The position numbers and the translations under genes are program-made. From Polaromonas sp. (GTDB lineage Bacteria > Pseudomonadota > Gammaproteobacteria > Burkholderiales > Burkholderiaceae_C): DNA of 64,000 bases. Positions 4,640 to 38,266 of this stretch are shown one piece after another. The notes below the pieces were generated by a model, which worked only from the letters and a program-made list of their open reading frames with translations, was not told where the DNA came from and searched no databases. Numbering within the stretch: position 1 is the first letter of the stretch; the number at the start of each line of letters is the position of its first letter. The stretch is taken from contig JAURWY010000017.1 of NCBI GenBank assembly GCA_030654695.1, positions 186,001-250,000 on the forward strand, given 5' to 3'.

Positions 4640-4695
4640 ATGAAAAAGGCCGCTAACTGTATGTCGTTAGCTGCCTTTGTCATGCGGTATGGTGG
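4640..4695. repeat. att copy 1 (outer), with damaged terminator hairpin
   Basis: This 56-bp match to the sequence downstream of the tmRNA 3' end includes the hairpin AAAGGCCGCTAAC...GTTAGCTGCCTTT. One G-to-T change at 4672 breaks a stem pair. The left flank differs from the other two copies, which marks this as the junction with the chromosome. The hairpin also lies 35 bp after the Gly-rich gene. Confidence 0.8.
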
Positions 4696-4992: not shown

Positions 4993-6114
4993 TCATGTCA
5001 GCAGCGCCAACTCGTAGCTTGTGCTGCGACCACTGGCGTCAGACTTCCTCAAAACTCCAAGCTCCAGCAGATCCGAGATATCACGCAGCGCAGTGTCTTG
5101 CGAACATTTTCCAATTGATGCCCACTTGCTGCTAGTCAGTTTGCTGTCGAAGCCATCCAGAATCTTGTTGAGCAACTTAATCTGACGCTCATTCATCGGC
5201 TTGCCTGCCCAATGCTGCCAATAGCGTGCCTTCATCAGCACTGAGGCGAGCGTCTGCTCCGCCCCCTGAAGGCATCTGAGCAAGCACGCTAGAAACCACT
5301 CCAACCAATCGGTAACATCCATGCTTCCCTTTTGGGTTGCTTCTAGATGATCGTAGTAAGTCTTACGCTCACGCTGTATCTGCGCTGACAAGCTGTAGTA
5401 GCGTTGTACCGAGGCTTCCGCTTTAGCCAATGCCATGTCTCCTACGGCACGCGCCATCCGCCCGTTGCCATCTTCAAAGGGGTGGATGGTCACAAACCAC
5501 AAATGCGCAAGTCCGGCCTTGATCACCGGGTCATCTTGTTGATCGACGTTGAACCACAGCAGGAAATCCGACATCTCAGCGTCCAGATGAAGCGCTGGGG
5601 GCGCTTCATAGTGAACCTTGTGACGGTGCATGGGTCCTGAGACCACCTGCATTGGCCCTTGCGCATCATCTCGCCACTGACCGACACGGATTTTGGAAAG
5701 ACCGCTGTATCCCGTTGGAAACATCGCCGCATGCCATCCACACAAGCGCTCAGCAGACAGTGGCGTGTTGTGCTTCTGGGTCGCATCCAGCACCATGTCG
5801 ACCACACCATCAACGTGTCGGTCCGCAGGCGCCAGTGCTCCGATGTCGACCCCGAGTCGGCGGGCGATGGAAGAACGCACCGAATCGGCGTTGAGTTTCT
5901 CCCCTTCGATTTCACTGGTCTTGAGCACGTCCTCAGTCAAAACACGCAGCGTCGCCTGGACACGCAAATCCATACCAAGGTCGTACATACGCCCTTGCAG
6001 ATGCCCCTGAGCCTGGTGCACTTGAGCGAGCAAGGGAGCCAGCCGCCGGTGGTCATAGATCCAGTTCGGCCAAGCTTTGAGTTGCCAAATGTAGAGTTCT
6101 TCTCCGCTTTTCAT
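4993..6114 (-). CDS. fic: Fic family protein (AMP-transferase type) with DUF4172-like N-terminus and winged-helix C-terminus
   Basis: A 373-residue Fic protein. The N-terminal YIWQ...WPNW segment matches the DUF4172-type domain. T66-S-E-I-E70-G71 fits the (S/T)xxxE(G/N) autoinhibitory motif upstream of the Fic core (class II). The active site HPFEDGNGR lies at about 210-218 and is complete (His, Asp/Glu, Gly-Asn-Gly-Arg). The last 60 residues (SSKWASIGKCSQDTALRDIS) look like a winged helix, so it may bind DNA. Fic enzymes transfer AMP from ATP to target hydroxyls. The ATG is followed at once by coding sequence with no Shine-Dalgarno and lies where transcription should begin, so the message is probably leaderless. 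Confidence 0.88.
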   Translation of the reverse strand: MKSGEELYIWQLKAWPNWIYDHRRLAPLLAQVHQAQGHLQGRMYDLGMDLRVQATLRVLTEDVLKTSEIEGEKLNADSVRSSIARRLGVDIGALAPADRHVDGVVDMVLDATQKHNTPLSAERLCGWHAAMFPTGYSGLSKIRVGQWRDDAQGPMQVVSGPMHRHKVHYEAPPALHLDAEMSDFLLWFNVDQQDDPVIKAGLAHLWFVTIHPFEDGNGRMARAVGDMALAKAEASVQRYYSLSAQIQRERKTYYDHLEATQKGSMDVTDWLEWFLACLLRCLQGAEQTLASVLMKARYWQHWAGKPMNERQIKLLNKILDGFDSKLTSSKWASIGKCSQDTALRDISDLLELGVLRKSDASGRSTSYELALLT

Positions 6115-6285: not shown

Positions 6286-6359
6286 TAAGTCATTGATTTA
6301 CCAATGAAAAAGGCCGCTAACTGTATGTCGTTAGCGGCCTTTGTCATGCGGTATGGTGG
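6286..6359. repeat. att copy 2 (shared boundary of elements A and B) with intact hairpin
   Basis: This 74-bp copy matches 19282-19355 with two mismatches (CC for AA). It contains the 13-bp perfect stem AAAGGCCGCTAAC/GTTAGCGGCCTTT at 6309-6342. To its right GCTGGGG at 6360 resembles the tmRNA 3' acceptor region. Confidence 0.85.
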
Positions 6360-6764: not shown

Positions 6765-6928
6765 TCCGCACTGAGTGTGAGGTTAAGTCCGCACTGAGTG
6801 CGGAGTTACGCGCTGACAAGTTTCTGGGACTATTCCTACGCGCTGGGTGCAGACCCTGAACTTGCTGCTGTGTACGCATGGATGCCACGGGGTGCAAATC
6901 AATTTGGATGTTCCGCACCCGGTGCGGA
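6765..6928. promoter_or_regulatory. Three palindromic TCCGCAC...GTGCGGA sites
   Basis: TCCGCACTGAGTGCGGA at 6788-6804 is a perfect palindrome with one central base. TCCGCACTGAGTGTGAG at 6765-6781 is a decayed copy 23 bp upstream. TCCGCACCCGGTGCGGA at 6912-6928 is a third copy with a different centre. They lie 230-400 bp before the pyrophosphohydrolase/helicase pair and look like dimeric repressor operators. No regulator gene is adjacent. Confidence 0.5.
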
Positions 6929-7169
6929 TGCTTCTAAAACATCAAAAGAATTAGCAGCAATTGCTGGAACTGGAACCCGGTCAATTGAACAAGCCAAGGG
7001 TGCTGAAGAAGTTGTTGATGCCTGCCACTCGGCCTCACAAACACGAAGCCCTTTGTACACTATGGGAATGAATAATTTACGCGCTTTCCCTGTGCGTGCG
7101 GGAACTAATCTTCAAGCTCAGAGTGATCCTGTTCAGTCCGTGAGCCACAAAAGGCAGTCGCATGAATGA
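6798..7169 (+). pseudogene. Possible remnant of a helix-turn-helix phage/plasmid protein
   Basis: An open frame of 123 codons covers most of the gap before the pyrophosphohydrolase gene. Its middle (SKELAAIAGTGTRSIEQAK, about residues 49-67) resembles the helix-turn-helix stretch of ParB-like phage and plasmid proteins. The flanks look like no protein family, the only start is a GTG inside a palindrome, and no Shine-Dalgarno is present. I read it as a decayed fragment or chance frame. The rest of 6366-7161 holds only the arm-site and palindrome repeats described separately. Confidence 0.25.
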
Positions 7170-7551
7170 CCCTGAACACGAATCAACAGATCGGCCTTTG
7201 ATAAACGTGTCGGCGCTTGCGGCCGCTTTGGAAGCATTCGCAGTTGAGCGGGACTGGGAACAATTCCACTCCCCAAAAAATCTAGTCATGGCCTTGACAG
7301 GCGAAGTGGGCGAACTTGCTGAAGTATTCCAGTGGATGACCGAGGAGGCATCCAAGGGAGCATCAACCGACCCGCGCACGGCACAAAGCGTAAAAGATGA
7401 GCTCGCCGATGTCCTTCTGTACCTTGTTCGTTTGTCGTCAGTCCTTGGAGTGGATCTTGACGCTGCAGTTCGGGACAAGCTTGAAACCAACCGCTTGAAG
7501 TACCCGGTCGAAAAAGCACGTGGCAGTAGCAAAAAATACACCGAAATGTAA
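7162..7551 (+). CDS. MazG-like nucleotide pyrophosphohydrolase (dCTPase/RS21-C6 type)
   Basis: A 129-residue all-alpha NTP pyrophosphohydrolase. The metal-binding EExxE/ExxD pattern is visible as E48-V-G-E51 and E80-L-A-D83, with the family motifs GEVGELAEVFQW and DELADVLLYLVRL. Length and the SPKNL...QW segment fit the single-domain RS21-C6/DCTPP1-like group, which hydrolyses (d)NTPs, often dCTP or modified nucleotides, to the monophosphate. The ATG has an AAGG site 7 bases upstream. The gene is followed after 17 bases by the nuclease-helicase gene on the same strand, so the two form an operon. In a defence island, nucleotide depletion or removal of modified phage nucleotides is a plausible role. 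Confidence 0.82.
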   Translation: MNDPEHESTDRPLINVSALAAALEAFAVERDWEQFHSPKNLVMALTGEVGELAEVFQWMTEEASKGASTDPRTAQSVKDELADVLLYLVRLSSVLGVDLDAAVRDKLETNRLKYPVEKARGSSKKYTEM

Positions 7552-7568
7552 GATAACAAGGGAATTGC

Positions 7569-9446
7569 GTGATTGTTTACGAAGCCACCAAGAGCCAGTT
7601 CTTAAAAGACAACAACGACCGTGACATTGAGGAAGTAATCCTAGAGCGGTTCAAGGCAACGACGGGGAGAGGCGTAGCAATTGGGGAGCTTAGGTCATGG
7701 AAGGAATCCCTTGGATTTATGGCTCGCGTCCTCACGGACCCGGAAATTCCCGAAGACACTGGCGTCGGTGTTGAGCTTCATCTTCCTCAAAGCTCCAAGC
7801 GAATTGACATCACGTTGACAGGGCTCGGTGCGGCCGGTGAAAAAAATGCGGTACTCATTGAGCTGAAGCAATGGGACAAGATAACAGCCAGTCCCAAAGA
7901 CGCAATTGTCGTGACTTACCTAGGTAAGGCCCAGCGTGAAGTAGTTCATCCATCCTATCAATCGTGGTCCTACTCCACCTTGCTTGAAAGCTTTAACGAG
8001 GCGGTTCACCAAACAGACGGTATTTCCGTTTTGCCATGCGCATATCTGCACAATTACTCGCGCGATGGAGTGATTGACTCCCCTCACTACAGTTCCTACA
8101 CGGAGCGTGCACCACTCTTCCTAAAAGGGGAGGCTGAACGCCAGCTGCTGAGAGAATTCATCAAAAAATACGTCAAATATGGCGACAAAAAAGCAGTCCT
8201 TTACGAACTATCGAATGGCAAAGTTCGGCCGTCCAAGGCGCTCGCAGATGGCTTGAAGGGGCTCATAAAGGGCAACCCTGAGTTTGTTCTCATTGATGAC
8301 CAAAAAGAGGTCTACGAAGCCGCGTTAACGGCCGGCAAAGCGGCTACTGCTGCATCGCCTAGGGTTGTGCTTGTTGAGGGTGGCCCCGGCACCGGAAAGA
8401 CGGTGTTGGCGATCAACTTGCTGGGAAAACTGATTGAGTCGGGATTGAACTGTCGGTATGTTTCCAAGAACGCCGCACCTCGCAAGGTTTACGAGAGCAA
8501 ACTGGTTGGCACCATAACTCGAACTCGTTACTCACATCTTTTTGGAGGGTCCGGTGCTTTCATAGATGCTGAGCCCAATGCGTTTGATGTCCTTATCGTG
8601 GACGAGGCGCATCGACTCAACGAAAAGAGCGGCCTGTATAGCAACTTGGGCGATAACCAGATCAAGGAGCTCATCAAGTCGGCCAAATGCGTGGTGTTCT
8701 TCATTGACGAGGACCAGCGGATCAGTCTGGACGACATCGGAACGAAAGCCGACATCAGCGCCTTCGCTCAGACCAAGGGGGCATCCGTTGAAGAGTACTC
8801 GTTAGCCTCCCAATTCCGATGCAGCGGCTCAGACGGCTACATCGCTTGGCTCGATAGCACTCTCGGCATTCGAGGAACAGCCAATACCAACTTGCCCAAG
8901 GAAGAGTACGACTTTCGTGTGTTCGCAACGCCGCAGGACATGCACAACGCAATTGAAGAAAAGAACGAGAGAAACCGCTCGCGGGTGGTCGCCGGTTACT
9001 GCTGGAAATGGATCACGAAGAAGGAGGATCCAACAGCTTTCGACATCGTCATTGGAGACGATTACAAGCGGCGCTGGAACCTCGAGAAGGATGGGAGCCT
9101 TTGGATCGTCACTGAGGGCTCAATCAATGAAATCGGATGCATCCACACTTGCCAAGGGCTAGAGCTTGACTATGTGGGTGTCATCGTTGGACCGGACTTC
9201 ATCGTTCGCAATGGCAAAGTAGTCACAGTTCCCAAGGCCAGAGCCCGACATGACAAGACAATGAAGGGCTTCAAAGGCTTCCTCAAAGCGGACCCTGAAG
9301 GTGCTAAAGAAGCGGCCGACCGGATCATCAAAAATACATACCGCACGCTTATGACGCGGGGCATGAAGGGTTGCTTTATTTACTGCACAGATTCTGAGAC
9401 GGCAGCCTACTTCAGTGATGGCCTGTCGCTGCCGATGCAGTATTGA
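7569..9446 (+). CDS. DUF2075 helicase with N-terminal PD-(D/E)XK nuclease-like domain
   Basis: A 625-residue protein starting at GTG with AGGGA six bases upstream. Residues 65-105 contain D80 and E98-L-K100 on predicted strands (RIDITLTG...VLIELKQW), the pattern of a PD-(D/E)XK nuclease. Residues about 265-615 form a DUF2075/SF1-like ATPase with Walker A EGGPGTGKT (about 271), Walker B VLIVDEAHR (about 341), a glutamine-containing segment ASQFRCSGSDGY, and late motifs HTCQGLELDYVGVIVG and RTLMTRGMKG resembling SF1 motifs V and VI. It is probably an ATP-driven nucleic-acid nuclease. It is coupled to the preceding pyrophosphohydrolase; I know of no named defence system with this exact pair. Confidence 0.85.
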   Translation: MIVYEATKSQFLKDNNDRDIEEVILERFKATTGRGVAIGELRSWKESLGFMARVLTDPEIPEDTGVGVELHLPQSSKRIDITLTGLGAAGEKNAVLIELKQWDKITASPKDAIVVTYLGKAQREVVHPSYQSWSYSTLLESFNEAVHQTDGISVLPCAYLHNYSRDGVIDSPHYSSYTERAPLFLKGEAERQLLREFIKKYVKYGDKKAVLYELSNGKVRPSKALADGLKGLIKGNPEFVLIDDQKEVYEAALTAGKAATAASPRVVLVEGGPGTGKTVLAINLLGKLIESGLNCRYVSKNAAPRKVYESKLVGTITRTRYSHLFGGSGAFIDAEPNAFDVLIVDEAHRLNEKSGLYSNLGDNQIKELIKSAKCVVFFIDEDQRISLDDIGTKADISAFAQTKGASVEEYSLASQFRCSGSDGYIAWLDSTLGIRGTANTNLPKEEYDFRVFATPQDMHNAIEEKNERNRSRVVAGYCWKWITKKEDPTAFDIVIGDDYKRRWNLEKDGSLWIVTEGSINEIGCIHTCQGLELDYVGVIVGPDFIVRNGKVVTVPKARARHDKTMKGFKGFLKADPEGAKEAADRIIKNTYRTLMTRGMKGCFIYCTDSETAAYFSDGLSLPMQY

Positions 9447-9682
9447 TCTAAAAGGGCTGATGCTGGACTCACATACACACCAGAATCTCGCTCAAAACGA
9501 GAATGGTTTTGACGTCAACGACATTGAATCCACTGGCTGTGAGTCAGTCTGGCATCATCAAGTTCACCGGCCTAAAGTGAACAAAGATAACAGTAAGGCC
9601 CGGAGCAGGCAGCAGGTACTTCAGCTTGGCCACAATGAAACCCCTGAAAAGACGAAGTGCAGCTTATCCCACACAGCTTGCA

Positions 9683-9710
9683 TTGTCATTTTTTCGCCCC
9701 CTGGTATGGT
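9683..9710 (+). promoter_or_regulatory. Candidate promoter for the shosA-shosT pair
   Basis: TTGTCA at 9683-9688 and TATGGT at 9705-9710 are 16 bases apart, ending 24 bases before the ATG at 9735. The rest of 9447-9734 holds no gene I can support. Confidence 0.35.
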
Positions 9711-9734
9711 AATAAAGTAAAAAAATAAGCGGCA

Positions 9735-10748
9735 ATGAATTCACCTACTTTCATTCGCATAGACGCGGAAGCCTTTGGATACTCACCTGGCGTACTCGCG
9801 ACCTTAGGCCTAAGCTCAATTCCAGGTATCGGCGTATCCAGCCTGCGCCGTCTTGGAGATCCAAGTTTTGTTACAGAGCTCTTTGCCGGCGAGGACCTGG
9901 ATGTCTTCACCTCCACAATCAATGCTCTTGGTGCCAAGTTCTCCCCAATGAGCTCCGACATAGCAGACTGGCAATCACTTAGGGAGCGCGTTTGGAGGTC
10001 TGGCCGCAACGCTGCAGCAGAGCTAATGACGGCGGGAATCAGATGCATCACACCATCCTCGGCTTTGTACCCAAATCGTTTAAACGACTTGAAAGACCAT
10101 CGCCCAAACTGGCTTTTCTTGAAGGGAAATCTGGCATTGCTTACCGCAAGTAGTGTGGCGGTAGTTGGGACGAGGGATCCGTCTGAGAGCGGAGACTTCC
10201 TAACCAAATATGCTGTGGCAGCCCTGAGAGAACTAAATTGTCCAGTTATCAGCGGTCTGGCAAAAGGGATCGATAGCATTGCCCACGAGTGGTCCCTGAG
10301 ACTTCACGTGCCAACGATTTCAATACTAGGGTCAGGGCTCCTAGCCCCGTACCCAGCTCGCAATGCCGACTTATCGGAACGAATTGTGGCTGAGGGTGGT
10401 CTATTGATCTCCGAATACTTGCCCCGACAAGCGGCCTCTTCCGAAATGTTCGTTTGGCGCAACCGACTTCAAGCATGCTTGTCCGATTGTGTAATTGCTA
10501 CGGAATGGAAAAAAAGTTCAGGCACAGCACACACAATCCGATTTGCTCGAGAGCTTCGAAGAACAAACATCAGTCTTAGTCTTGCCGGCACCCAAACGTC
10601 CCCTGAACAGGGTCGCGCAGAACAACACTTCGTACTCCCTACGGAACACGCGCGCTTTATGGAGTCAATCTCGGGATCAGTGCGCGATGAGCTCACCCAT
10701 TTGGCTGAACCGCAAAACGATCAGCTCAATCAAAACACTCTTTTCTAG
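9735..10748 (+). CDS. shosA: DprA/Smf-like protein, ShosA-type antitoxin
   Basis: A 337-residue protein with the DprA Rossmann core: VAVVGTRDPSESGD (about 140-153), then VISGLAKGIDSIAHE, TISILGSGLLAPYPARN and a late ATEWKKSSGTAHTIRFA segment. The N-terminal part has a degenerate helix-hairpin-helix (SIPGIGVSSLRRLG). Chromosomal DprA loads RecA onto incoming ssDNA. Here the gene sits 8 bases before a phosphoribosyltransferase-domain gene on a mobile element. That DprA plus PRTase pairing is the ShosTA toxin-antitoxin/anti-phage system, in which the DprA-like partner is the antitoxin. Identification is by domain pairing. Confidence 0.72.
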   Translation: MNSPTFIRIDAEAFGYSPGVLATLGLSSIPGIGVSSLRRLGDPSFVTELFAGEDLDVFTSTINALGAKFSPMSSDIADWQSLRERVWRSGRNAAAELMTAGIRCITPSSALYPNRLNDLKDHRPNWLFLKGNLALLTASSVAVVGTRDPSESGDFLTKYAVAALRELNCPVISGLAKGIDSIAHEWSLRLHVPTISILGSGLLAPYPARNADLSERIVAEGGLLISEYLPRQAASSEMFVWRNRLQACLSDCVIATEWKKSSGTAHTIRFARELRRTNISLSLAGTQTSPEQGRAEQHFVLPTEHARFMESISGSVRDELTHLAEPQNDQLNQNTLF

Positions 10749-10756
10749 GTATCGCA

Positions 10757-11977
10757 ATGGCTTTAAAGCTTGTTTTAATCAGCCCCTCTGGCACATTGGA
10801 GAGGGGTGGCAAGCTGAACAATGATGACATGCTTGCCCTAGGGAAAGTCATTAATAGGTTAGCCGCCTTAGAGATAAAAGTTGCAGTTTGGTCAAACAGA
10901 AACTGGTTAGTTGGGAAAATCAAACCCCTAGAGCAGTATTTATCCGAAAAATCGGGGGTCGAAGTATTAGCCGTAGGGCGTGGTCAAGGCAATCAATACC
11001 CTATTCGGCAACGCGCTGGCTCTATATCTTCAGTTCTTGAAAAATTTGGCGTAAAACTAGAGGAGACTGTACTAGTGGGAGCCCGTACTGAAGACATGCA
11101 AGCGGGAGTAAATAACAAGCTTCTCCTTTTGCGCCCCGCTTGGTACGGGGGCGATTTACAGTATGGGTTTAAGCTGGAATCAATACTTGAGCTAGAGCGT
11201 TTTTGCACTTTATTTGGAACTCGGATACATTCCTTTTACTGGCGGATAGATGATGCAAGCCGCGACTATCGCATGTATGCCCTTGGCCCGTTCTCCACCT
11301 ATATTCAGAGTTTTGCAAAATTTGGCGAGGATGCCGTTCAGGCAGCTAAATATGAAGCAGGGACTCTTAAATTTTGGGACCAGCTTATTATTTCAACTCT
11401 ATATTTTTCAGGAATAATTCATCAAGTTGATTACATCACAGTTTATCCTGGGCATAGCGCTACCATTAAAGAAAAAGCGTTTCACGAAGTTTTAAGCTTA
11501 CTTGGAAAATGCTTTTCAAAGCCATTTTTAGTTGACTTTATTTTACGACATGAAGACGCAATAAAAAGCACAAAGCAAAAGTCTATAGATAGAAAATTTA
11601 TTAGCCAGATCAATACATTAAGGTTGAATTCCAACCCATCAAAATATGGATCTGCTCCTCGTAAGTCAGCGATTCCAATAAATAACAAGGGCGTACTTGT
11701 GGTTGATGATATATGTACATCCGGCCGAAGTATGGACACAGCTCGAGCTTATCTTGCCGCTGCCGGAGCTCACACCGTTCTCTTCTCCTGGCTGAAGACG
11801 GTCAACACTGACTTTGTCTCCATGGAGCCAGCTCTTGAATTAAAGCCGTTTGAAAAAAATATGATAACTTCAGAACCGAATACATTCACCTATAAATATT
11901 CAAATCATATAGTTGATGCGGCTGCAGCTACCGAAATAGATAATGTCTTAAAAGCGTTTAAAGAATTTAAGATTTAA
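10757..11977 (+). CDS. shosT: HAD-like/phosphoribosyltransferase fusion, ShosT-type toxin
   Basis: A 406-residue two-domain protein. Residues 1-150 resemble a HAD hydrolase (VLISPSGTLERGG, VAVWSNR, VLVGARTEDMQAGVNNKL), but the usual DxDGT nucleophile motif reads SPSGT, so phosphatase activity is unlikely. The C-terminal part carries the PRPP-binding loop VLVVDDICTSGRSMDTAR (about 313-330), complete with both acidic residues, as in type I phosphoribosyltransferases. In ShosTA the PRTase partner is the toxin, thought to act on nucleotide metabolism. The gene is clearly more AT-rich than the flanking chromosome. It follows shosA by 8 bases and converges with the HNH gene 12 bases away. Confidence 0.72.
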   Translation: MALKLVLISPSGTLERGGKLNNDDMLALGKVINRLAALEIKVAVWSNRNWLVGKIKPLEQYLSEKSGVEVLAVGRGQGNQYPIRQRAGSISSVLEKFGVKLEETVLVGARTEDMQAGVNNKLLLLRPAWYGGDLQYGFKLESILELERFCTLFGTRIHSFYWRIDDASRDYRMYALGPFSTYIQSFAKFGEDAVQAAKYEAGTLKFWDQLIISTLYFSGIIHQVDYITVYPGHSATIKEKAFHEVLSLLGKCFSKPFLVDFILRHEDAIKSTKQKSIDRKFISQINTLRLNSNPSKYGSAPRKSAIPINNKGVLVVDDICTSGRSMDTARAYLAAAGAHTVLFSWLKTVNTDFVSMEPALELKPFEKNMITSEPNTFTYKYSNHIVDAAAATEIDNVLKAFKEFKI

Positions 11978-11989
11978 GATTTACCAAAG

Positions 11990-13036
11990 TCACTTTAGTT
12001 CTATCGAGCGCTGAAATGTTTCCAAATCAGGACATCCTGCCCGATGTATTGCACGATGGCAATTACTACACAGAACCATAAAGTCTGATGCCGTTGGCTT
12101 CAATATTGCGCCTTCATCAGGAAGTGAATATATTGGATTTTTGTGATGAGCCTCAATATATCCCGACATACCCGCTCCATAGCGACTTTCAAATGAAAAA
12201 TTACATGCTTGGCACCTAGTCCCAAGTAATTTTTTTACATCTGAAACTAGCTTTGAATTTCTTACTCGTGTTTCAAATTTTTTATGCCAAATTACTTTTT
12301 TCGCACCATCAACGGAACCTTCTGGTAACTCACCCTCCTCTTTTAGCCCCTCTAAGGCCTCATCTACCTTAGTGAATCGCATCGATGAATCTTTAGCTAA
12401 CAAATCATAAAATTTAATCATTTTAATGACATCAGCGGAAATCATTGAGTCATTAGGCATTGCGGCTAACGAGTATCGTTTTCCGAACGCCACTGAAACC
12501 GACCATGGATCAGTGTCTGATTTTTTTTCGCTTTGTACAGATGCACGACGCATGGTCGCAAAGGGCCCTAGCGAAAATCCCTCCTTCTCCCAAGAAACTG
12601 CAGCCCTACGCATTTGGACTGCCCTTGCGCTGAGTTCAACAAGAGCTGCTTTTTTCCCTACTGCTTTGACAAGTTTTTCGGCACCTTGTCCCATTACTAG
12701 ACAAACCGTCTCGAAACCAGGTTCAAAGAGAAAGACCGGATAAAATCCACCTGTAGCCGATGAAGTGATATCTTTCCGAAACACAGCAAGCCATGGCGCA
12801 TCCGACCATTGACCGAGTCCGGGGCTTGAATCAAGCGAATACTCTTCTTCATTGAGGGGGGTCCCAGCCAATGTGAGTGCAGAGCTAAGTGCACCTGGCC
12901 AGTCTTTTCTGATACGGGAGGCCAGCGGGTGACCCTTAAAAGCCTCTTGTTTCGACTTAAGAAAAGTGTTTCCAATTTCCTTTGTAACTTCGGTGAACGT
13001 CATATGCTTCCCATTTGGCAATAAATATCTTGTCAT
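11990..13036 (-). CDS. McrB-N (DUF3578)-like domain fused to HNH endonuclease, type IV restriction-like
   Basis: A 348-residue protein. Residues about 10-190 match the McrB N-terminal/DUF3578 modified-DNA recognition domain (GQWSDAPWLAVFRKDIT followed by GGFYPVFLFE). Residues about 275-345 form an HNH nuclease with zinc ligands (CQACNF, LCSNCH) and the catalytic YIEAHHKNPI and CHRAIHR. This layout, a modified-base reader plus HNH, is that of stand-alone type IV restriction enzymes that cut methylated or hypermodified phage DNA. It has its own orientation, convergent to ShosT, so it is probably a separate defence unit. The target modification cannot be predicted. Confidence 0.8.
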   Translation of the reverse strand: MTRYLLPNGKHMTFTEVTKEIGNTFLKSKQEAFKGHPLASRIRKDWPGALSSALTLAGTPLNEEEYSLDSSPGLGQWSDAPWLAVFRKDITSSATGGFYPVFLFEPGFETVCLVMGQGAEKLVKAVGKKAALVELSARAVQMRRAAVSWEKEGFSLGPFATMRRASVQSEKKSDTDPWSVSVAFGKRYSLAAMPNDSMISADVIKMIKFYDLLAKDSSMRFTKVDEALEGLKEEGELPEGSVDGAKKVIWHKKFETRVRNSKLVSDVKKLLGTRCQACNFSFESRYGAGMSGYIEAHHKNPIYSLPDEGAILKPTASDFMVLCSNCHRAIHRAGCPDLETFQRSIELK

Positions 13037-17883: not shown

Positions 17884-19122
17884 TCACGCCGACTTCAACT
17901 GGATCACTTCACCACCAGCAGCCAGCTTGTCTAAGTAGTCGGCCCATTGTTGAATCATCTTGAACCGCTGTTTTACATACTGGGTTCGGTTGTAGCTGCG
18001 CCCGTTAGCATCTTTTACCGCGTGGGCTAAGTTGGCTTCGATGACGTGGTGGTCGATGTTCAACTCGTCCACAAGCATGGTGCGTGCACTTGCCCGGAAA
18101 CCGTGCCAAGTTTGTTCTTTGCCAAAACCTAGCGCATAGAGGGCACTGCGTACGGAGTTATCAGAAACGGGCCTGTCGTGGCTGCGCTCACCCGGGAACA
18201 CATAGCGCCCGTGCCCAGTCAACGGCTGAATTCCGCGAAGTAAGGCCACGGCCTGCGTGGGCATTGGCACGGTGTGGGCTTCACCCTGCTCTTTTTCCAG
18301 CTTAGTGCGCTTCATTTTCATACTGGGGATCGTCCACAGCGCACCGTCTAAATCAAGTTCGGCCCATTCCATCATGCGCAGGTTGCCGGGTCGTTGATAC
18401 AGGTATGGCGTCAGCTGCAAAGCCGTGCGCACAATTGGCCCTCCCTTGTAGCCCTTGATAGCCCGCATCAAGCCACCCATGCGCACCGGATCGAGAATGG
18501 CGGCGAAGGACTTGCCACGGTAAGGCATCAACCGTCCTTTCAGCCCTTCGGTGATATTTCGCTGCTGCACTTCGGCGGTAGGTAGCCAGTAGTCCCAAAC
18601 TTGCCGCGCCAGCATCAGTACACGATCAGCCGTTTCGATCGCGCCTCGTTCTTCAATTTTTTGGAGCGCCGCCAACAAATCCATGGCATGAATCTCACTC
18701 ATCTGCCGCTCACCAATCCAAGGAAACAGGTCACGCTCCAGTTGCCGCAATGAACGGTCTGCATGGCTACCACTCCATTGCGGAGCTTGTTTGCCGTACC
18801 ATTCCAAAGCCACGGCCTTGAAGGTGTAACTGCCATCGGGTGTAGTTTTCAGCTTTTCAAGCTTGCGCGCCTGCACAGGATCATTCCCTAGTGACTTTTG
18901 AAGCTTGGCAGCGTCACGGGCTTTGCGTGCCGCAGCCAACGACACATCTGGATAACTGCCAAGTGCCAATTGCTTTTCAACGCCAGCAATGCGGTATTTC
19001 AGAAACCAGCGCTTAGAGCCTGTCGGACTAACTTGTAGGTACAAGCCACCGGAGTCGAAAAAGCGCACCTGTTTCTTTTCTGGGGGGCAAACTGCATTAC
19101 GGCACTTGGCATCGATCAACAT
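17884..19122 (-). CDS. int: Tyrosine-type integrase, P4/DUF4102 family
   Basis: From ATG 19122 the protein is 412 residues. It has an N-terminal arm-binding DUF4102 domain (FFDSGGLYLQVSPTGSKRWF...LGSYPDVSLAAAR) and a C-terminal catalytic domain with the first Arg in YLYQRPGNLR, then HGFRASARTM and the tyrosine in GRSYNRTQY. The frame is open 90 bases further upstream, but that extension has no homologous look and crosses the arm-site repeats. The gene is the outermost of element B and reads in the same direction as ssrA. It should catalyse integration into and excision from the ssrA 3' region. Confidence 0.9.
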   Translation of the reverse strand: MLIDAKCRNAVCPPEKKQVRFFDSGGLYLQVSPTGSKRWFLKYRIAGVEKQLALGSYPDVSLAAARKARDAAKLQKSLGNDPVQARKLEKLKTTPDGSYTFKAVALEWYGKQAPQWSGSHADRSLRQLERDLFPWIGERQMSEIHAMDLLAALQKIEERGAIETADRVLMLARQVWDYWLPTAEVQQRNITEGLKGRLMPYRGKSFAAILDPVRMGGLMRAIKGYKGGPIVRTALQLTPYLYQRPGNLRMMEWAELDLDGALWTIPSMKMKRTKLEKEQGEAHTVPMPTQAVALLRGIQPLTGHGRYVFPGERSHDRPVSDNSVRSALYALGFGKEQTWHGFRASARTMLVDELNIDHHVIEANLAHAVKDANGRSYNRTQYVKQRFKMIQQWADYLDKLAAGGEVIQLKSA

Positions 19123-19236
19123 GGGGGTACAGCTCCAATTAAAAGTGGAAAAAAGGCCATGTTTCCATTCACAAATGGGGGTGCAAAACCTCCAAAAAAA
19201 TGAAAAACACAACTTACACCCCCATTTGTACCCCCG
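19121..19236. promoter_or_regulatory. Putative integrase arm-type sites, right end of element B
   Basis: Four (T)G/ACACCCCC-type sites lie here: GGGGGTAC (19123, inverted), GGGGGTGC (19177, inverted), TACACCCCC (19215) and TGTACCCCCG (19227). The last is identical to the site at 6441 by the other att copy. They overlap the int promoter region, so integrase may regulate itself. Confidence 0.45.
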
Positions 19237-19281: not shown

Positions 19282-19355
19282 TAAGTCATTGATTTAAAAA
19301 TGAAAAAGGCCGCTAACTGTATGTCGTTAGCGGCCTTTGTCATGCGGTATGGTGG
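19282..19355. repeat. att copy 3 (ssrA-proximal boundary of element B)
   Basis: A 74-bp direct repeat of 6286-6359 (two mismatches). It runs from inside the element through the ssrA terminator hairpin up to the first bases of the tmRNA acceptor stem (CCA at 19350-19352, minus strand). Confidence 0.88.
19303..19338 (-). terminator. ssrA Rho-independent terminator
   Basis: A perfect 13-bp stem (AAAGGCCGCTAAC, 19305-19317, with GTTAGCGGCCTTT, 19326-19338) with an 8-base loop. On the minus strand it is followed by a T run, 12 bases after the tmRNA CCA. The same hairpin is duplicated in the other two att copies. Confidence 0.85.
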
Positions 19356-34256: not shown

Positions 34257-35134
34257 GCCTTGAGCCTCGGGTAAGCCCGACACAAACCCACAATGCGCCC
34301 AACCAAGCGCGCCAGATAACGCGGCTGCGGCAGCAGCAACCTAGGCACCAACGTCAACAGCGCCAGCAGTAGCGTCTTCCAGCGCAAGCGCAAAGCATCG
34401 GCGGCGCCAAAGTACTTGCTTTCAAACACCAGCTTGGACTGCGCATGGTGGTATCCGCGAATGAATTCCGACTTGAGCGGATTCGGCCCCTTCACCGAGC
34501 CTCGGGACAAATGCGTGATCTCGACCTCCGGCACCAACACGATCTGCTGGTTCGCCAAAAATACCCGCTGGCACAAGTCCTCATCTTCGTAATACAGAAA
34601 AAAAGTTTCGTCGAAAAAACCGATGTTCTTCATCACCGCCATGTTCAGCAGCATCACCGCACCGCACACAAAACCAACGCAACACGGCCCCTCCGCCTTG
34701 GGGCCTTTAGACAACCAATGCGTCGCCGGCCAGCGGTAACTCACTTCAGGCGAGCCATCACGGCGAATCAAATGTGGCGCGATGATGGCGGCGTCGGGGA
34801 AATTCGCCGCCGCTTGCAACATACTTTTTAAAAAAGCAGCGGTGGGCAAACAATCTGGGTTGAGCAGCAAAGCGTAGGGCGTGGTGACCGTCGCCAAGGC
34901 CCGATTGTTAGCCGCACCGAAGCCGAGGTTTTTGGCGTTGCGAATCAAGGTCGCGCTGGGTAGTGCAAGCTGCAGTTGCGCCTCAATCTCGTCATCACTG
35001 GCGTTGTCAACAATGACGACGTTTTTCATCGTCTTCAGTGCCTCTGACAACGCGGGCAGACAGTGCGCGCTGTTGTAGGTGACCGAAATAACGGTCACGT
35101 CGTCTGCATCAACTTTTGTCATCATGTCCATCAC
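34253..35134 (-). CDS. Glycosyltransferase family 2 (rhamnosyltransferase-like)
   Basis: A 293-residue GT2 enzyme: VTVISVTYNSAHCLPAL, DNASDDEIE, NLGFGAANNRAL, LLLNPDCLPT (the DxD-like site) and FFLYYEDEDLCQRV. These are typical of the WbbL/rhamnosyltransferase branch. Hydrophobic C-terminal residues (LLLALLTLVPRLLL) may anchor it to the membrane. It is the last gene of the LPS operon, nine bases after the GT4 gene. The start could be any of the first Met codons. Confidence 0.85.
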   Translation of the reverse strand: MMDMMTKVDADDVTVISVTYNSAHCLPALSEALKTMKNVVIVDNASDDEIEAQLQLALPSATLIRNAKNLGFGAANNRALATVTTPYALLLNPDCLPTAAFLKSMLQAAANFPDAAIIAPHLIRRDGSPEVSYRWPATHWLSKGPKAEGPCCVGFVCGAVMLLNMAVMKNIGFFDETFFLYYEDEDLCQRVFLANQQIVLVPEVEITHLSRGSVKGPNPLKSEFIRGYHHAQSKLVFESKYFGAADALRLRWKTLLLALLTLVPRLLLPQPRYLARLVGRIVGLCRAYPRLKA

Positions 35135-35143
35135 GCAGTCACA

Positions 35144-36127
35144 TCAGTTCCACGGCAGACGGACGTCACGTCCGGTCGCACGCGGATGGTTTTTTGACAA
35201 GCGTTCACCCGCCAAAACTTGTTCGTACTTTTCAAGGTAACCACGGGCCATTGTTTCAGCATTGAAATGCGCAACCGCCTGCTGATGGCAGGCGCGCATG
35301 TCAAAGGACTGCTCTTGAATTGAAGAAACCAATTCAGCCTTGTTAGCGGACAAAAATCCATGCTCAGGGCCAACCAACTCAGGCAACGCACCGTACGGTG
35401 TGGCAAAAACTGGGCAGCCGAAATAAAGACTTTCGATCACAGCCAAACCGAACGGCTCATGCCAGCGCACCGGAAATATCAGTCCATTGGACGTGTTGAG
35501 AAGTCGGAATTTATCTTGTCCGCCAACCATCCCGTGAAATTGAATTCTGCGCGACCACGTGAAGCGAAAGCCACGCTTGAGGTTCAGCCGTGTTCCGCCC
35601 ATCACCGCCAGCTCGACGCCAGCATCCAAAGCGACATCAATGGCACCAGTGACATTTTTAACGCGCCAAGCTGCTTTGCCCAAAAAATGATGATGCTCAC
35701 GCCGCGCATCAAAATCAACCGCACCATAAGCATCCCAGTTCAACCCGTTGTAGACAAACTGATCTGAACCGTGACGCTGCGCATGGTTCTTAGATACAAA
35801 AATGGAATTAAACGGTAGCAAATTGTCAGCCGCCGTATTGCCGTGCTCGGTCACGACATACGGTTTGTTGAAGTCTTCATCCAAACTGAAATCTGGACTG
35901 AATTGGAAATGAACAATATCAATCCCATCCGGAATTTGCATCCTCAAATCAACGCTGGGATCTATGTACAAAACCTCGGCAAAAGGACAAGTCGAGCCCG
36001 CTGCCACCAGATAAGTCACTTGGTGACCCAACTGGCTGAGCGCATAGCCTAAATCCCAGATCACACGTTCAGTACCACCATAGGCATAGACTGGGATAGA
36101 CGTGTAGCTGATTAATATAATTTTCAT
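35144..36127 (-). CDS. Glycosyltransferase family 4
   Basis: From ATG 36127 the protein is 327 residues with a GT-B fold. The N-terminus MKIILISYTSIPVYAYGGTERV is the acceptor-site loop, and the C-terminal EPFGLAVIESLYFGCPVFAT contains the E-x7-E nucleotide-sugar motif. Substrate unknown. Five extra codons upstream (MTCNV) are not conserved in style. It lies in the LPS operon, 34 bases after the AT-rich GT2 gene. Confidence 0.87.
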   Translation of the reverse strand: MKIILISYTSIPVYAYGGTERVIWDLGYALSQLGHQVTYLVAAGSTCPFAEVLYIDPSVDLRMQIPDGIDIVHFQFSPDFSLDEDFNKPYVVTEHGNTAADNLLPFNSIFVSKNHAQRHGSDQFVYNGLNWDAYGAVDFDARREHHHFLGKAAWRVKNVTGAIDVALDAGVELAVMGGTRLNLKRGFRFTWSRRIQFHGMVGGQDKFRLLNTSNGLIFPVRWHEPFGLAVIESLYFGCPVFATPYGALPELVGPEHGFLSANKAELVSSIQEQSFDMRACHQQAVAHFNAETMARGYLEKYEQVLAGERLSKNHPRATGRDVRLPWN

Positions 36128-36161
36128 AACATTACAAGTCAATAAAAATAAATAACCAGCT

Positions 36162-37016
36162 TCAAATAAACTTTTTATATATTTTAATTAGCTCCGGATG
36201 TTGCAAAGTAAAATCAGAACAACCAATTCTCTTTATAAGCTCCCGATAGAAACTTTTCTTTGAATATCCTTTGAATACCCTACCTATTCTCATCAACAGT
36301 CTAGAAATGTGGATACGAAATGTTTTTTTCTTTACTTCAAAGTTGTTAGAGTTACCATCGTGTATTCTGTATTCGATGAGTGGTTTCGAAATAAACCTGA
36401 CTTCAGACAATGGTGCAATAACCTTTAGAATCCAGTCATCATGACCCTTCCCGGGAAATATAGGAATAATCACATCATTGAAATCACGGCGGAAGGCCAT
36501 CATGCAGCCGCACCACGCCCTTGGATTTGGAAAAAGGAAAATTTTTATCGAATTATTTATAATTTCCTTTGGCAATTGAGAAGAAGTCAATTTATCAACT
36601 CCATAGACCTCTTCCGCCTCTAGATAATTAAGACCCCTTGAATCTATTTTTTTAAAGCCATGAAAAACCAATCCGACAGCTGATTCAGCATCAAATACAG
36701 CCACTACTTGCTGAATTTTATCGGGCGCCCAAAGATCATCTTGATCACATAAAAAAATAATATTAGATTGGCAAAGACTGATCGCCTTTTCAAAATTTTT
36801 AACATAACCAAAATTTTTGACATTTCTAAAAATTCTCACTTTGAATTTTGAATTTATAGAAAATTTCTCTGCAATGAGGATTGTGCCGTCAGATGATGCA
36901 TCATCACAAATAATTAACTCATCAGGCAACACAGTTTGTGCAGCCAACGAATCAAGTTGTTGCTTCAAAAACTGCTCACCGTTGTAAGTACAGAGGGCCA
37001 CAGAAGTTGAACTCAT
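36162..37016 (-). CDS. Glycosyltransferase family 2 (AT-rich, probably acquired)
   Basis: A 284-residue GT2 of the rhamnosyl/alpha-L type: VALCTYNGEQFLKQQLDSL, CDDASSDGT, FLCDQDDLWAPDK (the DQDD metal site) and HDDWILKVIA. Its codon use is much more AT-rich than its neighbours (many AAA, ATT, TTT codons), as expected for transferred O-antigen genes. It overlaps the ligase gene by four bases, so it is nonetheless part of the operon. Confidence 0.87.
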   Translation of the reverse strand: MSSTSVALCTYNGEQFLKQQLDSLAAQTVLPDELIICDDASSDGTILIAEKFSINSKFKVRIFRNVKNFGYVKNFEKAISLCQSNIIFLCDQDDLWAPDKIQQVVAVFDAESAVGLVFHGFKKIDSRGLNYLEAEEVYGVDKLTSSQLPKEIINNSIKIFLFPNPRAWCGCMMAFRRDFNDVIIPIFPGKGHDDWILKVIAPLSEVRFISKPLIEYRIHDGNSNNFEVKKKTFRIHISRLLMRIGRVFKGYSKKSFYRELIKRIGCSDFTLQHPELIKIYKKFI

Positions 37017-38266
37017 TCTTTCCCTCTATTTGACTTATTTATTAAAATAATGAATGACAGGCTCACTGCAACCGACAACATCGTCGGATAGTAATTATGA
37101 GCAAAATTAACATTGGTCAAGCTACTGGTCGCATGCATAAAAAAAACACCCGCTATACCCAAAGCAGCCATTTTCTGCTCTTTTCGTAAACGCATTACCA
37201 TACAGCCAAGACCTACCAGATAAGACAAAAAGCTAGCAAGCCCAAATAATCCCTGGTCAAATAATTCTTCAATGTAATTGTTGTGAACATGCCCCAGACG
37301 TTGAACCGCTGTGGAATTAACTTCAACGCCCCAGCGCTGGATGGATGCCATGCGCTCCTCACGACCAACTCCCAACACGAGATGATCTGGTACTTTCTCA
37401 ATAGCCCTCTTCCAAAGATAGAGCCGAATACCGACTGATGTGTCAATGCTTACTTCTTTCGAGCTGTCCATTGCTGAAAATTCTTTCATGGCTAGCTGGA
37501 CACGCTGCGCCGGGATAGAAATAAGTTGGGGAAATATTTGTACAAGCAAGGTGATGGCAATGACAGCGACCATGACACGACTCGCCAATGCAGGCCACCT
37601 GATACCGCTTCTTGCGTAGTGCCACAGCACAACCCCCGCGACCCAAAGAACAATGCCGTAAGAACCGCGTGCTTGGCTGAGCAACACGGCACACACACCA
37701 ACGACCACGCCAGAGGCATAAAACAAACGTACCGGCAGTCGTTGTGATGAAGTACTAAACGTCAATGCCAATACGACACAGACCAGCAATGACATGGAAG
37801 CGCCCCAAGGTATTTGATTCGTCGGTGCCAGTGCAGCGCCAAACACAAGCATCCATCCGAAACCAGCCCACAAAGCTAAGACCAATGCATACCCAAGCCT
37901 TGTCAATTGGACGCTGGTGAAGCGTGCGTAATGGACAAGTCCCAGCAAACCGAGTGCGCCAAATAAGAGTCGGAACTCAGCGTGCCTCTCCCCCCAGCTA
38001 TCGCCCCAGTAAAACTGGGTGACAGTTCTAAGCGCAAGTGCTGCTAGGCATGCAAAGACCCAGCCCTTAGCCGCAGAAAATTCTGCAGTCGACTCTTGCG
38101 CTGAGCCACGTTTGAAAGACCACACACCTATAAGAAAAAGAGCTAACCAGCACGCACCAGCCAATTTTGAATTGAGTGGCGCCAATACCAACAAGAGTAA
38201 AACTGCACTCCATTGCCAGTTTTTGACGCCTTTTGAATTCGTTTCAATCAACGGCATCGCAGTCAT
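37013..38266 (-). CDS. O-antigen ligase family protein
   Basis: A 417-residue polytopic membrane protein with about ten to twelve hydrophobic segments and a large periplasmic loop. Around LVLGVGREERMASIQRWG and LGHVHNNYIEELFDQGLFGL it carries the Wzy_C/O-antigen ligase motif HxxNxxxE..x..GxxG. Such proteins transfer polysaccharide to lipid A-core in the periplasm (WaaL); a Wzy polymerase role is the alternative. It overlaps both neighbours by four bases. Confidence 0.83.
   Translation of the reverse strand: MTAMPLIETNSKGVKNWQWSAVLLLLVLAPLNSKLAGACWLALFLIGVWSFKRGSAQESTAEFSAAKGWVFACLAALALRTVTQFYWGDSWGERHAEFRLLFGALGLLGLVHYARFTSVQLTRLGYALVLALWAGFGWMLVFGAALAPTNQIPWGASMSLLVCVVLALTFSTSSQRLPVRLFYASGVVVGVCAVLLSQARGSYGIVLWVAGVVLWHYARSGIRWPALASRVMVAVIAITLLVQIFPQLISIPAQRVQLAMKEFSAMDSSKEVSIDTSVGIRLYLWKRAIEKVPDHLVLGVGREERMASIQRWGVEVNSTAVQRLGHVHNNYIEELFDQGLFGLASFLSYLVGLGCMVMRLRKEQKMAALGIAGVFFMHATSSLTNVNFAHNYYPTMLSVAVSLSFIILINKSNRGKE

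Follow-up and report, generated by a model that had tools for sequence, protein, structure and literature searches.

Within the 64,000-nucleotide stretch of DNA analyzed here (the window), two adjacent genes encode a dCTP pyrophosphatase-like protein (dCTPase) and a helicase with a nuclease-like N-terminal domain, a pairing that is real and recurs across many phyla of bacteria as well as in at least one archaeon. Defense is the best reading of the pair that its sequences offer, and we consider it on balance probable that the two genes form an immune module, carried on mobile elements, that would combine dCTP starvation with an attack on DNA. The pair and its upstream region comprise the following features:

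6766-6927 (no strand assigned): three putative operator-like palindromes, CCGCACnnnGTGCGG, upstream of the dCTPase gene; 6766-6780 has 2 mismatches, 6789-6803 and 6913-6927 are perfect
7162-7551 (+): dCTP pyrophosphatase-like (DCTPP1/MazG superfamily) protein of 129 residues, from Pfam PF12643/PF03819, a PDB sequence match and pocket residues
7569-9446 (+): nuclease-helicase partner of 625 residues
7569-8282 (+): its N-terminal PD-(D/E)XK-like domain, residues 1-238, with E69, D80, E98-x-K100 and Q131xxxY135
8361-9392 (+): its SF1 helicase domain, PF09848 at residues 265-608, with Walker A GGPGTGK at 271-277 and DEAH at 345-348

The original prediction was of a two-gene operon encoding a MazG-like pyrophosphohydrolase and a protein joining a PD-(D/E)XK-like site to a DUF2075 SF1-like ATPase, and it proved accurate as to positions and residues. 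Both open reading frames lie exactly where it placed them, on a common strand with 17 bp between 7162-7551 and 7569-9446, and the residues it singled out (E48, E51, E80, and D83 in the first protein; D80, E98, and K100 in the second) are present and conserved. The window holds no perfect copies of the CCGCACnnnGTGCGG palindrome beyond the two upstream of the pair.

The first protein matches the MazG-like and MazG families of Pfam (PF12643/PF03819), in keeping with the predicted superfamily. The generic MazG reading was set aside, because the nearest solved relatives among PDB sequences are the mammalian dCTP pyrophosphatases 2a3q (E 3.6e-31) and 6sqw (E 3.7e-31), and the protein is best read as an enzyme of that kind. 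Its likeness to DCTPP1 (RS21-C6) covers residues 25-129 and most of the substrate pocket. In the available part of a study of the human enzyme, the docked pocket comprises His38, Trp47, Glu63, Glu66, Trp73, Glu95, Asp98, and Tyr102, with His38 docked against the cytosine (PMC4491611); by alignment to the PDB relatives these listed positions correspond to L23, W32, E48, E51, W58, E80, D83, and Y87 of the window protein, seven of the eight being matched. The acidic site of DCTPP1 (E63, E66, E95, and D98) is represented by E48, E51, E80, and D83, which are kept in 63, 63, 62, and 63, respectively, of 63 paired homologs (63 of 71 dCTPases were aligned, near-duplicates and the cut copy L024 being omitted). 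In the same alignment W32 is found in 63/63, W58 is Trp in 58 and Phe in five, and Y87 is Tyr in 42, Phe in 13, and Trp in eight. Since the pocket residues match and DCTPP1 acts on dCTP and 5-substituted dCTP, as stated in the available part of PMC7162842, one of these would be the likeliest substrate. The window protein differs from DCTPP1 in being paired with a nuclease-helicase and in not keeping His38: the position is Leu in the window and L/I/V/S in 63/63 homologs (His in 0/63), and therefore the base preference may differ from that of DCTPP1.

Nucleases of the PD-(D/E)XK group share the motifs D...ExK, and QxxxY marks the RecB branch. There is modest support for a PD-(D/E)XK-like nuclease fold in the N-terminal domain of the second protein, in which E69, D80, E98, K100, Q131, and Y135 are each kept in 72/72 aligned helicases (of 81; L007 was omitted for an in-frame stop, and L009, L012, L015, L029, L030, L032, L047, and L048 mostly as near-duplicates). 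A profile of this domain gave 0 matches to PDB sequences, and Foldseek gave none at E ≤ 0.001. The remainder of the protein matches PF09848 (SLFN-g3_helicase, formerly DUF2075) with 345.5 bits against a curated cut-off of 24; its invariant residues are G271, G272, P273, G274, G276, K277, D345, E346, and H348, and its core resembles RecD, RecD2, and UvrD.

The possibility that the two genes are adjacent only here, which would have told against the original prediction, can be dismissed, as the pair is adjacent in many genomes. Relatives of the helicase number at least 8000 at E ≤ 1e-20. From a scan of a genome collection for related loci, the best 80 of 331 were retained. A dCTPase immediately precedes the helicase on the same strand in 67/80 and lies downstream in 3/80 (two on the same strand, one of them cut by a contig end, and one on the opposite strand); the underlying tally includes the window as well. 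The other 10 of these best 80 are without a dCTPase ORF: just upstream, L016 and L019 keep weak dCTPase remnants (E 0.001 and 0.008), L076 has a dCTPase piece cut by the contig end, and seven show no dCTPase trace in the available flanking DNA. Four of the seven (L051, L059, L075, and L078) have a C-terminal extension, identified by Pfam as Peptidase_S24 in both of those scanned. Intergenic gaps are short, the commonest being a 4-base overlap at 15 loci (helicase starts taken from the match).

When run on 398 genomes from the phylum of the window, the helicase profile matched 10 times, in nine genomes, with a dCTPase in the flank of nine of the ten, all adjacent (downstream in G106; the copy in G093 is broken by stops). 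The 296 genomes of a second phylum gave 15 matches, with a dCTPase in the flank of 13 and directly adjacent in 12. Over the 694 genomes of both phyla a dCTPase lies within ~1.5 kb of 22/25 helicase matches, 21 of them adjacent (one copy stop-broken); G000, G452, and G456 are rows of the helicase profile itself, and without them the figure is 19/22, with further overlap between samples and profile rows being likely (G355 and L011, for instance, have identical dCTPases). Because of this pairing in related loci (67/80 upstream) and in the genome samples (22/25), chance adjacency was set aside, as judged from the counts alone. Presence of the helicase strongly predicts a dCTPase, and presence of a dCTPase weakly predicts the helicase. 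A DCTPP1-like gene is present in 64 of the 398 genomes, namely in 9/9 with the helicase and in 55/389 without it, and 55 of the 64 consequently carry no such helicase. At 22 loci, the neighbors of unpaired dCTPases are ordinary-looking genes (judged by eye from sequence starts). The divergent helicases L118 (a second copy in G355), L166, and L174 have no dCTPase in the flank.

The nuclease is an exchangeable part of the system, with the dCTPase and helicase staying together. A GIY-YIG-like head takes the place of the PD-(D/E)XK-like one in 10 of the 25 helicase matches (L115-L117 and L167-L173); that of L115 scores 20.2 bits in Pfam, just below the cut-off of 22.6, and the other nine were read by eye from sequence. 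A dCTPase is directly adjacent to all ten, the broken G093 copy included, and because 10 of the 22 paired helicases bear such a head, the nuclease has been swapped while dCTPase and helicase persisted. The original prediction had nuclease, helicase, and hydrolase as one system; the pairing of dCTPase and helicase recurs, with the correction that the PD-(D/E)XK-like head is not a fixed member of it. With the L115 protein as query, 3/398 genomes of the window's phylum gave a match, and no additional GIY-YIG-like member came to light.

Relatives may also carry a LexA-like peptidase (S24) domain. A C-terminal S24-like domain is found in eight of the ten GIY-YIG-like helicases (L170 is without it and L116 runs off the contig) and in ten helicases with a PD-(D/E)XK-like head. 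The four fused relatives run against Pfam were all above the Peptidase_S24 cut-off, and the S24-like Ser (GxSM) and Lys, as read by eye, are present in 18/18 fused relatives aligned (two additional L073 ORFs taken in by the length rule were disregarded).

A tree of the dCTPases, built from 110 columns, omits L024 and ten loci without a domain-length dCTPase; its bootstrap had not settled, and L057, L089, and L145 form long branches. In it the partners of both head types interleave, e.g., L080 with L169 at 100/93. Its starred branches force at least two changes in the GIY label and at least six in the unpaired label, which applies to 22 copies in the tree. The association of dCTPase and helicase has formed, been lost, or changed more than once. 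A dedicated dCTPase lineage is not supported, because paired and unpaired copies interleave as well. The divergences of the two proteins are correlated across 61 loci (r 0.51 vs. at most 0.15 in 2000 shuffles), a value compatible with co-evolution and with shared ancestry alike.

In the window the pair is part of an element of ~13 kb inserted at ssrA, for which the following features were identified:

6286-6359 (+): direct repeat of the ssrA 3′ end, far boundary of the element; 72/74 bases identical to 19282-19355
9735-10748 (+): ShosA-like (DprA family) gene; PADLOC ShosA 1.9e-71
10757-11977 (+): ShosT-like (phosphoribosyltransferase-like) gene; PADLOC ShosT 1.4e-59, Pribosyltran 24.4 bits, below the cut-off of 26.3
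11990-13036 (-): MrcB_N-HNH, restriction-like protein; PF12102 3.9e-31, HNH 19.7 bits, below the cut-off of 21.4
17884-19212 (-): integrase-like ORF beside ssrA, identified as an ORF only
19282-19355 (+): repeat overlapping the tmRNA 3′ end, near boundary of the element

The ORF at 17884-19212 we take to be a tyrosine integrase. The cargo also includes a DUF927 protein that weakly matches the cassette helicase Cch1, and GC content falls from 0.58-0.61 left of the element to as low as 0.42 inside it. Within the genus the helicase occurs in 4/37 genomes, the window's own included.

Related pairs are likewise found on mobile DNA. Six annotated plasmid or phage records were examined and a dCTPase adjoins the helicase in four: an archaeal Halalkalicoccus plasmid; a Priestia plasmid, where the neighbors of the pair are ABC-three-component, MrcB_N-HNH, and type I restriction genes; a Marivirga plasmid (L089), where the helicase is broken; and the record of Microcystis phage Mwe-JY31 (L087, 22 kb, filed as phage; region 7629-11863), with a TPR protein upstream. 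This TPR protein matches PF20308 (TPR-S), and a ParA-like gene is also in the record. The Methanosphaera and Hymenobacter plasmids (L090 and L088) have the helicase without a dCTPase; the plasmid of Hymenobacter canadensis (L088) has two such helicase genes in tandem at 8001-11987, beside a restriction-modification locus. A role as a phage replication gene is disfavored; 4/50,697 phage records match. A scan of viral contigs gave at least seven loci, at least two of them long matches, and no DNA-level match was found in E. coli.

The surroundings of the pair also agree with the proposed role in defense: the window pair lies near ShosTA-like genes, and at E ≤ 1e-15 ORFs near related loci (150 of 432) matched 130 PADLOC models vs. 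80 for distant ORFs (150 of 315) and 22 for random ORFs of the window's own genome (150 of 153), counts that are of models rather than proteins, with distant genes also rich in matches and a random control drawn from one genome. The scanned ORFs were of at most 1200 residues and came from a simple ORF picker, false ORFs included. The 22 models of the random control were MADS (6 and 2 members) and Cas or DEDDh (1 member each).

Removal of nucleotides and nuclease-helicases are both known singly as means of defense. The claim that no named system has the two together agrees with PADLOC 2.0.0, which has no model joining a dCTPase to a nuclease-helicase (the first protein gave no match and the second partial matches only), and with the published literature searched (titles and abstract starts, preprints being outside its scope), where the pair is not described and no paper treats DUF2075 together with MazG. 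Neither "MazG" nor "DUF2075" was found in the available part of PMC12839542. The claim needs to be set beside the nearest entry, PDC-S41, a single-gene phage-defense candidate of PADLOC, which the second protein of the window matches in two stretches (E 2.9e-12) and its relative L109 at 2.9e-17, the best stretch of the latter (residues 4-295) being the nuclease-like part; the match is a distant one, and the one-gene model is without a dCTPase partner. The divergent helicase L118 matches PDC-S41 with E 2e-16.

Nhi and AbiO are defense proteins that combine nuclease and helicase. They have a related helicase core (7.1e-12 and 2.3e-12, window residues ~238-418), but the match stops short of the N-terminal domain and neither has a dCTPase partner; the protein was not assigned to Nhi, as residues 238-417 cover positions 180-329 only of the 470 in the model. 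Gabija likewise joins a nuclease (GajA, OLD/TOPRIM, inhibited by nucleotides) with an SF1 (UvrD-like) helicase (GajB), whereas in the window a single polypeptide holds both nuclease and helicase, and the partner gene encodes a nucleotide hydrolase. In PADLOC GajB was a weak match only (E 0.025) and GajA was unmatched by either protein. Membership of the Schlafen group was rejected, the helicase alone being shared: relative to group 3 (SLFN11), the window protein has the PD-(D/E)XK-like domain in place of the Schlafen RNase core, and the AlbA-type core was absent among 19 Pfam families at E ≤ 0.1, with none for the N-terminal domain alone. The dCTP deaminase and dGTPase defenses block phage DNA synthesis by eliminating a deoxynucleotide, as the window pair would do, but the window enzyme has another fold and product, and a nuclease-helicase is encoded beside it.

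The head swap, the carriage on mobile elements, and the setting among defense genes make an immune module coupling deoxynucleotide removal to DNA attack the most economical explanation. The product of the first gene would convert dCTP or 5-substituted dCTP to dCMP and pyrophosphate, and that of the second, an SF1 translocase powered by ATP and bearing a nuclease, would engage foreign or abnormally replicating DNA. An invader would thus be stopped by a shortage of dCTP for its replication, combined with unwinding and nicking of its DNA. The substrate, the cutting of DNA, the trigger, and the anti-phage outcome are what we infer from sequence and gene context. If the module works in this way, dNTP depletion and DNA attack are two arms of one operon. 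The original prediction of a defense system is supported in part, through recurrence in many phyla, an element near ShosTA, and PADLOC-rich surroundings, and is corrected as to enzyme identity, fixity of the nuclease, and the peptidase. That the nucleotide hydrolase is kept when the nuclease is swapped suggests a mechanism centered on the coupling of the nucleotide pool to the motor protein. More tentatively, the relatives might constitute a nucleotide-gated immune family, in which a dCTPase lowers the dNTP pool and so licenses or accompanies a helicase with an interchangeable nuclease head, with S24, in some members, as a switch that cleaves itself and is linked to DNA damage or replication stress.

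Unlikely, in our estimation, is a module for stress or repair, with the dCTPase cleaning up damaged or modified dCTP, the nuclease-helicase processing damaged or stalled DNA, and the S24 domain of relatives tying it to SOS. The RecD-, RecD2-, and UvrD-like core, the Ser and Lys in 18/18 aligned fusions, the ordinary-looking neighbors of unpaired dCTPases (22 loci, by eye), and the house-cleaning role proposed for DCTPP1 (in the available part of PMC7162842) would all suit such a module; its patchiness within the genus (4/37), its carriage by an ssrA element, plasmids, and a phage-like record, and the many PADLOC models matched by near ORFs argue against it. We regard as quite unlikely that the nuclease-helicase is the only effector, accompanied by a dCTPase that serves for guarding or self-protection, as in toxin-antitoxin pairs, or that filters out modified phage nucleotides. 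Helicases without a dCTPase trace do exist (7/80, best 80 of 331), and the distant single-gene relative is the candidate PDC-S41, but metal-site residues of the dCTPase are kept in 62 or 63 of 63 homologs and the pairing persists across the change of nuclease head. The same carriage by ssrA element, plasmids, and phage-like record might point to maintenance or replication of the carrier rather than to immunity; this is very unlikely, as the element has its own DUF927 protein, weakly matching Cch1, and besides the dCTPase there is hardly any common neighbor, the next largest cluster being found at 8/87 loci. For the proposed immune module, the two active sites, and the peptidase where present, lend themselves readily to mutation, making the order of events directly testable, and the pair is widespread under names such as "DUF2075 domain-containing protein."

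Among recurrent neighbors are a Fic gene in 7/87 loci, the window included, and a protein in 6/87 loci that we take to be EVE-like. The Fic/SoFic gene of the window (4993-6114, -) lies between an additional copy of the ssrA 3′ end at 4640-4695 (55/56 bases), which precedes the copy at 6286-6359, and that copy itself, resembling a second small insertion in series. A second AT-rich stretch lies at 35000-38000, with a GC content of ~0.42-0.43 in a region that is otherwise mostly 0.55-0.60.
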